Shown piece by piece: positions 1-23,796 of a stretch of 25,860 nt of DNA. The stretch is from a virus. Made by a program: the position numbers and the translations under genes. The DNA is taken from positions 1-25,860 of the IMG/VR virus record IMGVR_UViG_3300022929_000171. One strand, 5' to 3'. Under the pieces are notes generated by a model. It was not told the DNA's origin, did no database searches, and saw nothing but the letters and a program-made list of their open reading frames with translations. How positions within the stretch are numbered: position 1 is the stretch's first letter; each line of letters begins with the position of its first letter.

Positions 1-2
1 CA

Positions 3-317
3 GGTATTGAGAATGCCTCAGCGATGTCTAAGTTATTTGCGAAAGGGTCTGTAGAGAATGCAGCACTACAGATAACAATGGCAAAACAGAAGACTCAACA
101 GATGGAGCGTCAGCTTCGAGAGATTATTATCTACACTGTTGGGCAAGATGTTTACGTTGAAATGCTCAGAACTAGAGCGACAATCCGTAAGCAAAGGCTA
201 GACGCAGCAAGAGCTAGAGCAGCACGGAAACGCTTAATCATTGACGGTATTGGATTTGCGTTTATTGGAACAATTCTTTTTGCTTGCGTTATGGCAGTAG
301 TAGGAGTGATAGTTTGA
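3..317 (+). CDS. C-terminal membrane-anchored small protein, possibly partial at 5' end
   Basis: The reading frame is open to the left window edge, so this may be the end of a longer gene. The first ATG is at 24 and would give 97 residues, but no good ribosome site precedes it. The visible part is a highly charged, Arg/Lys/Gln-rich helical stretch followed by one hydrophobic C-terminal segment (about residues 72-97 counted from the ATG). This fits a tail-anchored inner-membrane protein. It overlaps the next gene's TTG start by 4 bases (TTGA), so the two are probably translationally coupled. I do not recognise a named family. A lysis or envelope role is only suggested by the membrane genes that follow. 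Confidence 0.6.
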   Translation, partial: GIENASAMSKLFAKGSVENAALQITMAKQKTQQMERQLREIIIYTVGQDVYVEMLRTRATIRKQRLDAARARAARKRLIIDGIGFAFIGTILFACVMAVVGVIV

Positions 318-1508: not shown

Positions 1509-1760
1509 ATGGAAGACCGACTCTCAAGAGTAGAAAGAAAGATTGACTCATTGCAGGAGGCGATTATCTCTTTGGCACGAGTAGAAGAAAGATTGGTTAC
1601 GGTCTTCAACCGTCAGTCTAAGATAGAGGCTCAAGTAGATAGCATGGAACAGAAGATGGACGCAATGGCAGAAAGTATTGCGACATCTATGGCTACAGAA
1701 AGGATTGTTTGGATACTAATTGCTGCTGCTATTGCGGCGTTCTTTAACTTTATGGAGTGA
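1509..1760 (+). CDS. Coiled-coil, tail-anchored membrane protein (XhlA-like)
   Basis: 83 residues: a long amphipathic coiled coil (about residues 1-65, with heptad-spaced Leu/Ile/Val/Met) and one C-terminal membrane helix (WILIAAAIAAFF), ending just after it. This layout resembles the hemolysin XhlA family, small phage membrane proteins that accompany holins and endolysins. It sits just before a lipoprotein and a lipase, so a lysis or membrane role is plausible but not shown. The next gene starts at or just after its stop (GTGA/ATG overlap zone). Confidence 0.7.
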   Translation: MEDRLSRVERKIDSLQEAIISLARVEERLVTVFNRQSKIEAQVDSMEQKMDAMAESIATSMATERIVWILIAAAIAAFFNFME

Positions 1761-1762
1761 TT

Positions 1763-1957
1763 ATGAAATACCTATTGATACTACCCGTTGTATTCTTGAT
1801 GTCATGTTCACAGTTAGAAGTTGTGGGAACTGCCGTAGATAGATACTGCGAGCTGTCTCCTACTCAAAGACTGGCTAACCGTGAAGCAATAGCAGAAGTA
1901 GTAGCACCTAATACAATCCAAATAGAGTGCGTAGATAATGCAGAAGATAGCATCTAA
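1763..1957 (+). CDS. Small outer-membrane lipoprotein (possible o-spanin)
   Basis: 64 residues from the ATG at 1763. GGAG at 1754-1757 gives good spacing, better than the in-frame GTG at 1757. A short basic start (MK), a hydrophobic stretch and the lipobox LMSC predict signal peptidase II cleavage before Cys15. The mature part contains two further Cys (in RYCEL and IECV), which could form a disulfide. The gene directly follows the XhlA-like protein and its last 20 bases overlap the lipase start. Its place in the late operon fits a spanin-type or envelope role, but no Rz partner is evident. Confidence 0.7.
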   Translation: MKYLLILPVVFLMSCSQLEVVGTAVDRYCELSPTQRLANREAIAEVVAPNTIQIECVDNAEDSI

Positions 1958-2630
1958 GCTGTCATTAGACGCTTACAAGGACGACATGGTTGGCGCGTTC
2001 AAGATAGAGAACAAGCTAACCTCTACCGTTGCGTATGTGAAGTTAACACCTGAGTGTAACTACGTTGTCTTTCGCGGCACTAACTCTATTGGCGATTGGT
2101 TGTTTAATCTTTCCGCTGTCCCTGCGTACTACAATAAACGGTGGACGCATGGTGGGTTTGCACTAGCACACAAGTCTGTATGGAAACGAATCAGACGGTT
2201 GCTAGACCCAAACAAGAAGACCTTGATTACTGGTCATTCTCTTGGCGGTGCATTAGCTGAACTATCAGCATGGGCGTGTAGAGACTTTACAGATTTGACA
2301 TTGATTACCTTTGGCAAGCCAAGGGTTTTCTTTCGCGGTTCTAAGAAGAAGATGAACCACGATGTACAAATCTCTTACGTTTCAGGCAGTGACGTTGTAA
2401 CTAGAATACCGAAGTTTGGATACGAGCCTGACTCAAATCAGGATCTAGTATACTTTGACAACTGGGGGCAAGTCTTCTTCAATCCTCCCAAGGGTTATGT
2501 AAGTAATGACTTCGGTTTAGGCGACTCAATCTCAGATCACTCGATGAAAAGTTATGACAAGATGGTTAATGATATGCACCTTAGTATTGCAGAGTTGCGC
2601 CATAACCGACAACCTCTCAGACGGGTATGA
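1938..2630 (+). CDS. Class 3 lipase-like alpha/beta hydrolase
   Basis: 230 residues with class 3 lipase features. A FRGT motif (45-48) is followed by the nucleophile elbow GHSLGG (Ser101), an Asp in SGSDVV (Asp152) and a late His in SDHS (His201), giving a complete Ser-Asp-His triad in the usual order. Members hydrolyse acyl esters of glycerolipids. No signal peptide is visible, so cytoplasmic accumulation and release at lysis, or packaging in the virion, are both possible. It overlaps the upstream lipoprotein gene by 20 bases and a downstream lipoprotein gene by 77 bases. The enzyme family is clear; a role in disrupting the host outer membrane is inferred from context. Confidence 0.85.
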   Translation: MQKIASKLSLDAYKDDMVGAFKIENKLTSTVAYVKLTPECNYVVFRGTNSIGDWLFNLSAVPAYYNKRWTHGGFALAHKSVWKRIRRLLDPNKKTLITGHSLGGALAELSAWACRDFTDLTLITFGKPRVFFRGSKKKMNHDVQISYVSGSDVVTRIPKFGYEPDSNQDLVYFDNWGQVFFNPPKGYVSNDFGLGDSISDHSMKSYDKMVNDMHLSIAELRHNRQPLRRV

Positions 2631-2766
2631 TCGTGGCGACATTGCTAAGGGATTGGTGGAGGACTTTAAGATTTATTGTACCGCACCTGTCACCTACATT
2701 CGCAGAGCGGGTAGGACAGTTGTATTAGCAACCACAGGAATACTTTTACCGGACGTATGCCCATGA
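2554..2766 (+). CDS. Small lipoprotein overlapping the lipase gene end
   Basis: 70 residues. MTRW followed by a hydrophobic run and the lipobox LVLQSC gives a lipidated Cys15. The mature part is short, with further Cys residues (YCTAP and PDVCP). It starts inside the lipase gene in another frame (77-base overlap), an arrangement typical of overlapping small phage lipoproteins such as Rz1. The signal peptide supports a real gene despite the overlap. Its C-terminus overlaps the next gene's ATG by 10 bases. A spanin or envelope role is a hypothesis. Confidence 0.65.
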   Translation: MTRWLMICTLVLQSCAITDNLSDGYDRGDIAKGLVEDFKIYCTAPVTYIRRAGRTVVLATTGILLPDVCP

Positions 2767-2942
2767 TCGTAGAGTTTCCAGACAACAAAACAGAACGGTT
2801 GATAGAAGACGCAATGGAGCAACTTGGCGCTTGGGTAGAAGGCCAAATAGAACTAGGGGTAAGCCCTATCATTTTAATAGGATTGATGGAGACATATAAG
2901 TCTGCACTCTCCTATAACCTGCTAGTAGATGAGGACGAGTAA
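2757..2942 (+). CDS. Small acidic hypothetical protein
   Basis: 61 residues, acidic, predicted helical, no membrane segment or recognised motif. Its first codons overlap the preceding lipoprotein gene, and its stop overlaps the next ATG (GTAATG junction at 2942), so it is probably translated by coupling. In-frame ATGs at 2757 and 2763 are both possible starts. Function unknown. Confidence 0.6.
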   Translation: MPMIVEFPDNKTERLIEDAMEQLGAWVEGQIELGVSPIILIGLMETYKSALSYNLLVDEDE

Positions 2943-3889
2943 TGCCAACAGATAGTAAAGACATATTTGGAAACTTAATTCCTGACTTTGGAATTGAGGG
3001 TGGGCTTGCTTCTTATCTTCCGGGACAAGAGTCTGCTTTTAATCCAGAAGCAATTCGCGAAGTATTGAGTGGCTCAATTGAAGCAGGTCTAGCCAATCTT
3101 CCTACAAGCATTGGCGGCAAAACTGAAGAGCAAATTATTCAGGATATTGCTGACTTCCTTGCTGCTCAAGACGCAACAGATTATGGTGATTTAAATTTAA
3201 ACACAACAGCTAACGAATTAACTAATGGCGTAGATATGCTTGACCCTGAAGCTACAGGTTTGGGCGGTGATGAAAGCATTGTTACTGACGATGAGCAGTG
3301 GGACAAAGTAGACAAAACAGAAGACCTTGGCTCACTGTTGCAAGACGCACTAGACATCTTTGGTTTAGGAAATCTTGACAAAGCTATTGTGAATGTTGCT
3401 GATGTAGTCAATGACCGTAACATCTCTGTTCAGGATGTTGCTGCTGCGTCAGGTAATACCGTTGAATACGTCAATGACGCTTTTGAAAAAGCCGGAGTTA
3501 AGATTAACAATCAAGGCGAAGTTATTGATGATGACACAGTTACTACTGGTGGCGATTCAACTACTACAACTACAACCACAACAACAGGTGGCGGTGCTTG
3601 GCAGAATACAGGTGGAGGTGTTACGGAAACTGTCGGCGACAGACAGATTGGTGACGGACTAATAGTCCCCAAAAGAGATGTGGTTGTTGACGATAGACCC
3701 AAGACAATTCTTCCTGCTTTGCCTAAACCAGAGCCTAAGCAGACAATGAATCTGACTTTAATGCAGTCAATAGTAAACGACACGCCAGTGACAGAATCAA
3801 TCTTATTCCCAACTAAGTTCACTAAGTTGGAGAACGTACAACAAGGAATGTTTGGTGAATTCCTTCGTGCCGCAGGAGGCAGACGATGA
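2942..3889 (+). CDS. Hypothetical structural-region protein with poly-Thr linker
   Basis: 315 residues. The N-terminal ~200 residues are acidic, soluble and partly helical. A run of nine Thr codons then leads into a Gly-rich stretch (about residues 205-228), a typical flexible linker, and a basic C-terminal part (PKRDVV, PKPEPKQ) follows. AGGACGAG precedes the ATG. The stop overlaps the start of the tail tube gene by 4 bases (ATGA). The position just ahead of the tail genes suggests a virion or assembly protein, but I recognise no family. Confidence 0.7.
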   Translation: MPTDSKDIFGNLIPDFGIEGGLASYLPGQESAFNPEAIREVLSGSIEAGLANLPTSIGGKTEEQIIQDIADFLAAQDATDYGDLNLNTTANELTNGVDMLDPEATGLGGDESIVTDDEQWDKVDKTEDLGSLLQDALDIFGLGNLDKAIVNVADVVNDRNISVQDVAAASGNTVEYVNDAFEKAGVKINNQGEVIDDDTVTTGGDSTTTTTTTTTGGGAWQNTGGGVTETVGDRQIGDGLIVPKRDVVVDDRPKTILPALPKPEPKQTMNLTLMQSIVNDTPVTESILFPTKFTKLENVQQGMFGEFLRAAGGRR

Positions 3890-13333: not shown

Positions 13334-13729
13334 TCACTCCTTATAAAAGATATGCCTACCTATCTGCCTTCGAGTCTGTAATCCGTCAACCCAATAAGGA
13401 TTAACATCATCCCTGTGGTAATAGGTAGAGCCTTCAGTTACATCGTACAATCTCTCAGCGTGTATCGCGATAGACAGGGCTTGCGTGTAAGCATCCTCAT
13501 CCGTAATCGTTTCTGGCTTGCCATCGCACCAATACGAGAAGTGGCATTGGTTTCTAAGAGGGCTACCCATCCAATACCTGCCTTGCTTTACCACTTCGCA
13601 AGGAGTGTCAGGAAAGTAAGGACTATGCACTCTGTTCATAATAGTATTCGCTACTGCAACCTGTCCCTCTAGTGGTTCTGATCTAGCTTCAAAGTAAATC
13701 GCCATTGCTATACATACAATCTCAAACAT
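13334..13729 (-). CDS. SleB-type cell wall hydrolase
   Basis: 131 residues from the ATG at 13729. The sequence AMAIYFEARSEPLEGQVAVANTIMNRV is the Hydrolase_2 (SleB) signature, with the Glu-Ala-Arg motif near residues 14-16. It is followed by CEVVKQGR, QCHFSYWCDG and a final YYHRDDVNPYW-type segment. The family cleaves peptidoglycan (lytic transglycosylase-like). The longer frame upstream (to 13873) lies entirely over the preceding gene and is rejected. Placement in the early operon, away from the other lysozyme, is unusual. No signal peptide is clear. Confidence 0.85.
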   Translation of the reverse strand: MFEIVCIAMAIYFEARSEPLEGQVAVANTIMNRVHSPYFPDTPCEVVKQGRYWMGSPLRNQCHFSYWCDGKPETITDEDAYTQALSIAIHAERLYDVTEGSTYYHRDDVNPYWVDGLQTRRQIGRHIFYKE

Positions 13730-13922
13730 CAGGTTTTCGTCCTCTCTTTCTGCGCTTGAACCCAACCTCGATGTGTTGGCGTTTAGGTCTTGGTGCGCCC
13801 CCGTGACGTTTGCGTACCATGTACTTATCCCCGAAAGGAAAGACATAATACACAACTCGTTCATCGTGAGCACACCACTCTGCTTCCTCTAATGCTTGCG
13901 CAAAGTCATCAAAGATAATCAT
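13722..13922 (-). CDS. Small basic-tailed hypothetical protein
   Basis: 66 residues: an acidic N-terminal half (IIFDDFAQALEEAEW) and a strongly basic C-terminal tail (FKRRKRGRKPDV). This suggests nucleic-acid binding. It overlaps NinB by 4 bases (ATGA) and the hydrolase start by 8 bases. No family recognised. Confidence 0.6.
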   Translation of the reverse strand: MIIFDDFAQALEEAEWCAHDERVVYYVFPFGDKYMVRKRHGGAPRPKRQHIEVGFKRRKRGRKPDV

Positions 13923-19672: not shown

Positions 19673-19897
19673 TTAGTTGCAAGTTACTTCGAGGTGCTTA
19701 AAGTTAGGCCATCCGAATTCCATACTGGTCTCGCGTCCAAGACAAACCATCTCGGCATATAGCTTTAGCTCGCGCTGCTCTACCTCGAACTCTCCCTCGC
19801 CTAGCAGTAGACCAAGGGTCAGTGAGATTATCAGAGCCATTAGTACAAGTAAAATCTTGAGCGCTTTATTTTCTTCTTTGAGTTTTGTGTATCGCAT
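19673..19897 (-). CDS. Single-pass membrane protein
   Basis: 74 residues: a basic N-terminus (MRYTKLKEENKALK), one membrane helix (about residues 13-33, ILLVLMALIISLTLGLLL) and an acidic outer or periplasmic part of about 40 residues with two Cys. Likely N-in, C-out. Function unknown; a superinfection or envelope role is possible for an early membrane gene. Confidence 0.65.
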   Translation of the reverse strand: MRYTKLKEENKALKILLVLMALIISLTLGLLLGEGEFEVEQRELKLYAEMVCLGRETSMEFGWPNFKHLEVTCN

Positions 19898-23009: not shown

Positions 23010-23393
23010 ATGGAAGACAACACAAACAACACTACAGAAGACCTGCCCGTAAAGCGTAAGCGTGGTAGACCCCGTAAATCCGAACTGATCCCAGAGAAGC
23101 GGGGCAGAGGACGACCCAAGGGTGACCACTCCGCTATGCAGGAGATGAAGCAGAGGTTCTTGGCTAGGAGAGATACGCCTGCCGTAATCAATGCGATATA
23201 CAAGGCGGCTATGGATGACGATCATAAGAACCAAGCTGCTGCATGGAAGCTGATTATAGATAGGGTCTTGCCTGTCAGTGCATTCGACAAGGATAAGATG
23301 GGCGGCAGACCAACGGTTAACATTACTATCTCTGGCGTAACAGATATGCCGAGCATAGAGGGCGAGGTCATTGACCATGAACAGATTGATTGA
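23010..23393 (+). CDS. AT-hook DNA-binding protein, possible small terminase
   Basis: 127 residues. Two AT-hook-like motifs (KRKRGRPRKSE at 15-25 and KRGRGRPKGD at 30-39) would bind the minor groove of AT-rich DNA. A helical part (AVINAIYKAAMDDD, NQAAAWKLIIDRVLPVS) and a short C-terminal tail follow. Position just before lysozyme and large terminase, and resemblance to small pre-terminase proteins of marine phages, suggest DNA recognition for packaging. It overlaps the lysozyme start by 17 bases. Confidence 0.65.
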   Translation: MEDNTNNTTEDLPVKRKRGRPRKSELIPEKRGRGRPKGDHSAMQEMKQRFLARRDTPAVINAIYKAAMDDDHKNQAAAWKLIIDRVLPVSAFDKDKMGGRPTVNITISGVTDMPSIEGEVIDHEQID

Positions 23394-23796
23394 TCTACTG
23401 GTTAAGCATGAGGGCTTGCGCACCAAACCATACGAAGACTCTGTTGGTGTCCTAACAATAGGCGTAGGACGCAACCTAGATGACGTAGGCTTATCCCATG
23501 ACGAAATCTACTATCTTTTGAAGAATGACATCCGCAGATGCGAGGAAGAACTAGATAACTCCTTTAGGTGGTATAAAGACCTCGATCAAGTAAGAAAGGA
23601 TGCTATGATAAACCTATGCTTCAATCTTGGTATATCAAGGTTGAGGAAGTTCAAACTGGCTTTACGAGCTATGGAAGTACGGGATTACGAGGATGCAGCG
23701 GATGAATTTTTAGATTCGCTGTGGGCTACCCAAGTAGGTCAACGAGCTATGGAAGTCACTTATATGATTCGATTTGGAGAATACTATGGACAATAA
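23377..23796 (+). CDS. T4-type lysozyme (endolysin, GH24)
   Basis: 139 residues from the ATG at 23377. The catalytic triad spacing equals that of T4 lysozyme: HEG (Glu12), PYED (Asp21) and LTIG (Thr27), with the GVGRNLDDVGLS segment after it. It cleaves the MurNAc-GlcNAc bond of peptidoglycan. An in-frame TTG two codons upstream is a less likely start. No signal peptide is visible, so a holin or other membrane lesion would be needed. A 15-base sequence occurs twice in frame (23664-23678 and 23742-23756), encoding RAMEV each time. Confidence 0.92.
   Translation: MNRLIDLLVKHEGLRTKPYEDSVGVLTIGVGRNLDDVGLSHDEIYYLLKNDIRRCEEELDNSFRWYKDLDQVRKDAMINLCFNLGISRLRKFKLALRAMEVRDYEDAADEFLDSLWATQVGQRAMEVTYMIRFGEYYGQ

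Follow-up and report, generated by a model that had tools for sequence, protein, structure and literature searches.

A class 3 lipase gene and the overlapping gene of a small lipoprotein (lipoprotein B, lpB) probably form the outer-membrane (third-step) part of a lysis module in uncultured marine tailed phages. The pair was analysed in an IMG/VR virus record of 25,860 bases (the window), which is a fragment, and in related IMG/VR contigs, where the module comprises a small membrane protein, the lipase, the overlapping lpB, often a holin-like protein with two transmembrane (TM) segments, and a GH24 lysozyme. Its association with lysis is well supported by gene context. Most likely the pair acts at the outer membrane as a substitute for spanins, because no Rz/Rz1 pair was found and the lipase lies among lysis genes. 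A sequence-only reading of the window had proposed lipase-assisted disruption of the outer membrane; the lysis-module context and the failure to find Rz/Rz1 agree with this proposal, and the two further proteins that it had counted as parts, lipoprotein A (lpA) and an XhlA-like protein, were dropped.

Cassette genes in the window

Positions of the cassette and associated genes are listed in Table 1. Only two lipobox ORFs were present in the window, namely lpA and lpB. In reversed sequence, used as a control, there were none in the window and six in 430 kb of window and relatives under a laxer rule. The sequence-only reading had described an intact Ser/Asp/His triad with GHSLGG in the lipase, lipoboxes in both flanking genes and overlaps of 20 and 77 bases. 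The triad and both lipoboxes were recovered as described, and the overlaps (lpA/lipase, 1938-1957, 20 nt; lipase/lpB, 2554-2630, 77 nt) agreed to the base. No regulatory RNA was matched in the cassette with Rfam. A promoter scan of the cassette stayed at shuffle level, and terminator-like sites were within about 1 sd of shuffle level.

Table 1. Lysis-related and neighbouring genes in the window (positions in nt)
Feature	Position	Strand	Remarks
Membrane protein, 3' part, C-terminal TM (CTM170 family)	1..317	+	listed ORF 24-317; cut by the left end of the window
XhlA-like membrane protein	1509..1760	+	cytosolic coiled coil and C-terminal TM (predicted); accessory or holin candidate
Lipoprotein A (lpA)	1763..1957	+	lipobox LMSC followed by S, MKYLLILPVVFLMSC followed by S; accessory
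Class 3 lipase (alpha/beta hydrolase)	1938..2630	+	230 aa; GHSLGG; Ser101-Asp152-His201; without signal peptide
Lipoprotein B (lpB)	2554..2766	+	lipobox LQSC followed by A, MTRWLMICTLVLQSC followed by A; mature part ~56 aa; start within the lipase gene
61-aa conserved neighbour	2757..2942	+	kept after lpB in the near group; no Pfam match
GH24 phage lysozyme (endolysin)	23371..23796	+	PF00959, E 3e-17; phrog_7

Class 3 lipase

The protein was matched by Pfam Lipase_3 (PF01764) with E 3e-17 and 63.1 bits (cut-off 22), and a profile matched class 3 lipases of the PDB at 1e-8. The catalytic residues S101, D152 and H201 were invariant across 54 distinct lipase sequences, gaps and truncated positions aside, and GHSLG or GHSMG was present in 199 of 201 lipases. 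The AlphaFold2 model (pLDDT 83, pTM 0.85) had feruloyl esterase A and the fungal class 3 lipases of Rhizomucor and Thermomyces as its closest PDB folds (E ~1e-10 to 1e-8). It is thus a member of the class 3 lipase family with predicted activity on lipid esters. The top structural match was the feruloyl esterase, and class 3 lipase folds include esterases with other substrates, which counts against a phospholipid substrate. The LysB family was absent from the Pfam and PHROG matches of the lipase, and a fold search against viral proteins gave no LysB-named protein among the significant matches; the fold neighbours were class 3 lipases. Nor did the Pfam and PHROG searches return any virion-type domain. 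In the window lipase, no stretch was hydrophobic enough for a signal peptide or TM segment, as would fit an enzyme released by a holin. Outside the overlap, the lipase had a median dN/dS of 0.076 and lpB one of 0.098, and at such low values both are selected proteins under purifying selection.

Lipoprotein B

In an alignment of 19 relatives, lpB residues C15 (the lipid-bearing residue), Y41, C42, R50, R54, G62 and C69 were invariant. Asp at position +2 was absent in all relatives scored. A u-spanin of the T1 gp11 type was considered and rejected, since lpB has no C-terminal TM segment and its hydrophobicity is too low: the 18-aa maximum of the mature part was at most ~1.4 in all relatives except one (1.7). 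Matches of the Rz1 profile phrog_1275 to lpB occurred in three records and were confined to the signal-peptide part. The AlphaFold2 model of lpB was of low confidence (pTM 0.45) and was left unused. No homologue of lpB was found among the isolated phages of INPHARED.

Conservation of the lipase-lpB pair

IMG/VR was scanned first with a single protein, which yielded 36 lipase loci, and then with a profile, which raised the number to 102, with identities as low as 43%. In the 66 loci analysed, lpB followed the lipase in 59, and a GH24 lysozyme lay downstream in 33. The far groups (43-51% identity) carried a diverged version of lpB. In four loci (L019-L022) lpA was absent and lpB was replaced by an unrelated lipoprotein, so that the position behind the lipase stays occupied by a lipoprotein despite the change of family. 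lpA itself was present in 43 of the 66 loci and was rejected as a core part, being missing in the far groups and in L019-L022. The conserved three-gene order expected by the sequence-only reading was therefore confirmed in part: the lipase and the downstream lipoprotein form a stable core, to which neither lpA nor the XhlA-like gene belongs as a conserved member.

Profiles were also built for lpB and for NTMcc, a protein with an N-terminal TM segment and a coiled coil that is the usual upstream gene in groups at 43-51% lipase identity. Each found >370 IMG/VR relatives, and the 80 best were retained for analysis. Searches based on lpB are circular for linkage to the lipase or narrow in pattern, and the NTMcc search, being blind to both lipase and lpB, served as the unbiased test. 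Among its best 80 loci, lipase was the next gene in 76 (74 complete, two cut by a contig end), and lpB followed the lipase in all 71 loci long enough to judge. The four without lipase (L276, L277, L286, L296) also had no lpB. The commonest order, NTMcc-lipase-lpB-holin-like-lysozyme, was found in 67 loci, and most others had sub-orders of it. Clustering of the 201 lipases gave 44 groups at 90% identity and 12 at 70%. Because some loci are overlapping fetches of one contig, breadth is more safely judged from these cluster numbers than from the loci.

L097 has lipase and lpA and no lpB, which counts against a functional lipase-lpB pair. Six related contigs had lpB, holin and lysozyme without an adjacent lipase. 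In the longest of these records (G018, covering L398/L399; 56.7 kb), the lipase stands alone at 53762-54508 on the minus strand, ~11 kb from lpB-holin-lysozyme; four other lpB-only records searched, all shorter, contained none. Given the joint loss in the NTMcc loci and the distant copy in G018, lipase and lpB are mostly kept or lost together.

Where the lipase was not adjacent, a strongly basic protein of 48-49 aa (MPLKKGK...) preceded lpB (L198, 3326-3472; L204, 4843-4989; L218, 3629-3778). Its gene was considered as a replacement of the lipase in the six contigs and rejected, because G018 has its lipase elsewhere. Where readable, NTMcc loci without lipase and lpB instead encode a 40-aa TM peptide, a different holin-like protein of 124-126 aa and lysozyme (L276, 157-1322; L277, 4007-5162; L286, 3989-5140). 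This holin-like protein presumably resembles the holins of gene transfer agents.

Search for spanin genes

One relative of 34.6 kb (G001) carries a direct terminal repeat of 127 nt and was accordingly treated as a complete circular genome. Lipobox genes and genes encoding an N-terminal TM segment were sought in this genome, the window and 13 further long records (430 kb in total). The recurring lipobox genes were lpA and lpB or its replacement in L019-L022; others were scattered and did not recur beside the cassette. Around 144 lipase genes (986 kb), no plus-strand lipobox gene other than lpB was found. The Rz family PF03245 was above cut-off in none of 14 long records, and phrog_1026 (Rz) matched none of 16. 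As a control, the phrog_1275 profile found Rz1 of Brenneria phage BREN6 at 6e-19. Thus the Rz/Rz1 pair elsewhere in the genome that would speak against the earlier proposal was found neither in the complete relative nor in 15 other long records; spanin sequences are very diverse, and absence by search is not proof of absence.

Within the late region, NTM91, a 91-aa membrane protein with a helical tail, was the sole type II candidate. It occurs in a minority of records (for example G001, G002, G011 and G016), where by its sequence it could be a separated i-spanin, and is absent in the window.

Membrane proteins encoded upstream

The XhlA-like gene, noted as such in the sequence-only reading, does resemble XhlA, albeit weakly: the match to PF10779 (E 7e-4, 20.2 bits) was below the cut-off of 34.7 and denotes a resemblance only, and phrog_937 ('hemolysin') was matched with E 2e-5. 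It lies upstream of the lipase in 43 of 66 loci. In other groups it is replaced by unrelated membrane proteins, either NTMcc or CTM170. The latter has a full length of ~155-170 aa in relatives, and a CTM170-like gene directly precedes the lipase in L182, L197, L203, L232 and L234. According to the charge (positive-inside) rule, the XhlA-like protein is N-in with a C-terminal TM segment (29/29), CTM170 has a cytosolic soluble part (21/21), and NTMcc is N-out with an N-terminal TM segment and a cytosolic soluble part (46/47). The XhlA-like protein as an i-spanin was rejected on this predicted topology.

Directly before the lysis genes, the late cluster of the window encodes a metallophosphoesterase/exonuclease (314-1501; phrog_704, E 4e-86) with an N-terminal HTH-like region. 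In the slot upstream of this exonuclease, the unrelated CTM170 and NTM91 alternate among close relatives (window, 1-317; L035, 8104-8376; L013, 5716-6222). Both may be holins that can replace each other, or lysis genes of another kind.

Linkage to lysis genes and host

In the clade of the window, the GH24 lysozyme is detached from the cassette and no separate holin was recognised. In the clade at ~60% identity the lysozyme gene directly follows the cassette, and it was found downstream in L023-L034, many of L068-L117 and most of L159-L315. The holin-like gene of relatives was matched by phrog_1544 (unknown function) only, with no Pfam holin and no match in INPHARED, so it is called a holin by virtue of its two TM segments and its position. 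A virion protein acting at entry was the other finding that would have spoken against the earlier proposal; in relatives, the lipase lies among holin-like and lysozyme genes and not among virion genes.

In Brenneria phage BREN6, a homologue of NTMcc is followed by holin, endolysin, Rz and Rz1. Since it heads a normal lysis cassette there, the position of the upstream gene is a lysis-cassette position. In Roseobacter phage CRP-823, a homologue of the XhlA-like protein precedes an annotated holin and an M15 peptidase; both alternative upstream genes hence occur in lysis cassettes of ordinary phages.

The whole cassette including lpB was present on a contig (L316) assigned to a Gammaproteobacteria MAG. 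A lysozyme match is found at two places on this contig, 34.3 kb from each other, the pattern that reading a circular phage genome more than once around would give, and L316 is weak evidence of a Gammaproteobacteria host. From the lipoproteins, this MAG and the distant Roseobacter-phage relatives, we infer a Gram-negative host.

Among the early/replication genes, the window also encodes a SleB-like cell wall hydrolase (13334-13873, minus strand; PF07486, E 4e-23), possibly a second peptidoglycan hydrolase besides the GH24 lysozyme.

Proposed mechanism and alternative explanations

In the proposed sequence of events, the lipase would build up in the cytosol, while lpB would leave the cytosol, receive its lipid anchor and be sent on to the outer membrane. 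Opening of the inner membrane by the holin would let lysozyme and lipase escape, and the peptidoglycan would be removed by the lysozyme. The lipase, docked by or acting with lpB, would then cleave acyl esters of the outer membrane's inner leaflet, and also those of the inner membrane, and the outer membrane would fail without a spanin. Catalysis on phospholipids, contact of lipase and lpB, the site of action, release by the holin and sufficiency without spanins are all predicted from gene content and context. The wider version of the proposal, in which a class 3 lipase, let out by the holin and recruited or activated by an outer-membrane lipoprotein of its own, replaces spanins as a means of enzymatic outer-membrane disruption widespread in the sea, has about even chances of being correct.

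Alternatively, lpB (and lpA where present) might be an o-spanin and one of the coiled-coil membrane proteins an unrecognised i-spanin, the lipase being only a helper. Spanin genes often overlap, lpB is a small lipoprotein of outer-membrane type with conserved Cys as o-spanins can have, unusual spanin topologies are listed as possible by Kongari et al. (PMC6139136), and NTM91 provides a type II protein with helical tail in a minority of records. We consider this arrangement unlikely, as the partners adjoining the lipase keep their soluble part in the cytosol according to the topology predictions given above, NTM91 is missing in most records including the window, and a spanin pair should co-evolve, whereas the partners belong to three unrelated families and lpB to one. 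Attack of the lipase on the inner membrane, as helper or replacement of the holin or as a factor of lysis timing, with lpB performing the outer-membrane step, would be compatible with the missing signal peptide, with the membrane protein that nearly always adjoins the lipase and with the lack of a recognised separate holin in the clade of the window. It appears rather improbable given the holin-like gene in the same module of many relatives, and co-loss and co-retention with a lipoprotein point to the periplasmic side.

Least of all do we expect a metabolic or virion enzyme (membrane-lipid recycling, entry) that is encoded near lysis genes by mere proximity. The class 3 lipases of phages P-SSM2 and Cr-LKS4 away from annotated lysis genes and the unlinked copy in G018 argue for such an enzyme; the tight, overlapping position in the lysis module in most loci and across 44 clusters, the linkage to lpB and the lack of virion-type domains argue against it and make it very unlikely.

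Comparison with known lysis systems

An esterase can perform the third lysis step, as described for LysB of phage Ms6 in mycobacteria (PMC5707550). Like the cassette lipase, this mycolyl-arabinogalactan esterase of mycobacteriophages is a serine esterase encoded with holin and endolysin and assigned to the outer-envelope step; it differs in family and substrate, is mycobacterial and has no lipoprotein partner. Rz/Rz1 and u-spanins (lambda, T1; PMC6139136) share with lpB the small lipoprotein of outer-membrane type and the overlapping gene pair beside holin and endolysin. The overlap partner of lpB, in contrast, is an enzyme, where a spanin pair has a type II membrane protein; no Rz family was matched, and lpB lacks a C-terminal TM segment or proline-rich tail.

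In Pseudomonas syringae phages related to nickie (PMC12173070, 2025), the gene of a GDSL lipase precedes those of holin and endolysin. This is likewise a lipolytic enzyme in the lysis cassette of Gram-negative phages, with esterase activity measured on 4-MU substrates. It differs in its GDSL family and carbohydrate-binding domain; the passages covered mention no lipoprotein partner, and the authors propose a surface substrate. Disruptins (phiKT; PMC12819732) also disrupt the outer membrane in phages without spanins and are short cationic peptides, in contrast to the enzyme described here. Class 3 lipases of phages P-SSM2, XacN1 and Cr-LKS4 are of the Pfam Lipase_3 type with 25-37% identity over about half of the protein, and those of P-SSM2 and Cr-LKS4 are not in a lysis cassette. 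Among the isolated phages of INPHARED, the cassette was not found and only distant lipases were. The literature covered, from which most subscription journals are missing, yielded no paper describing a class 3 lipase within the lysis cassette of a phage.

In the survey of Gram-negative phages by Kongari et al., 91 of 677 phages (~13%) had no recognisable spanin, and 31 of these had a lipoprotein but no i-spanin (PMC6139136), the same pattern as in the lpB cassette. P-SSM2 is on their list of spanin-less phages, which together with its distant class 3 lipase is suggestive only, because that lipase is not near annotated lysis genes. How the outer membrane is broken in spanin-less phages was called open in 2018 (PMC6139136) and in 2026 (PMC12819732). 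The lipase and lpB are a concrete candidate answer for a large marine group. If this is correct, enzymatic attack on lipids would be a further way through the Gram-negative outer membrane, beside fusion by spanins and the action of peptides (disruptins), and pairs of lipase and lipoprotein might be of use with endolysins.

Other genes of the window

In the early region (19673-19897, minus strand), a small type II membrane protein with a periplasmic tail of the pattern 'MVCL...GWPN...C' is encoded; similar proteins were present in G002, G004, G010 and G011. It possibly serves superinfection exclusion. The gene located after the cassette (2942-3889) varies from 77 to 590 aa among close relatives and contains low-complexity stretches, a variability suggesting a fast-changing protein.
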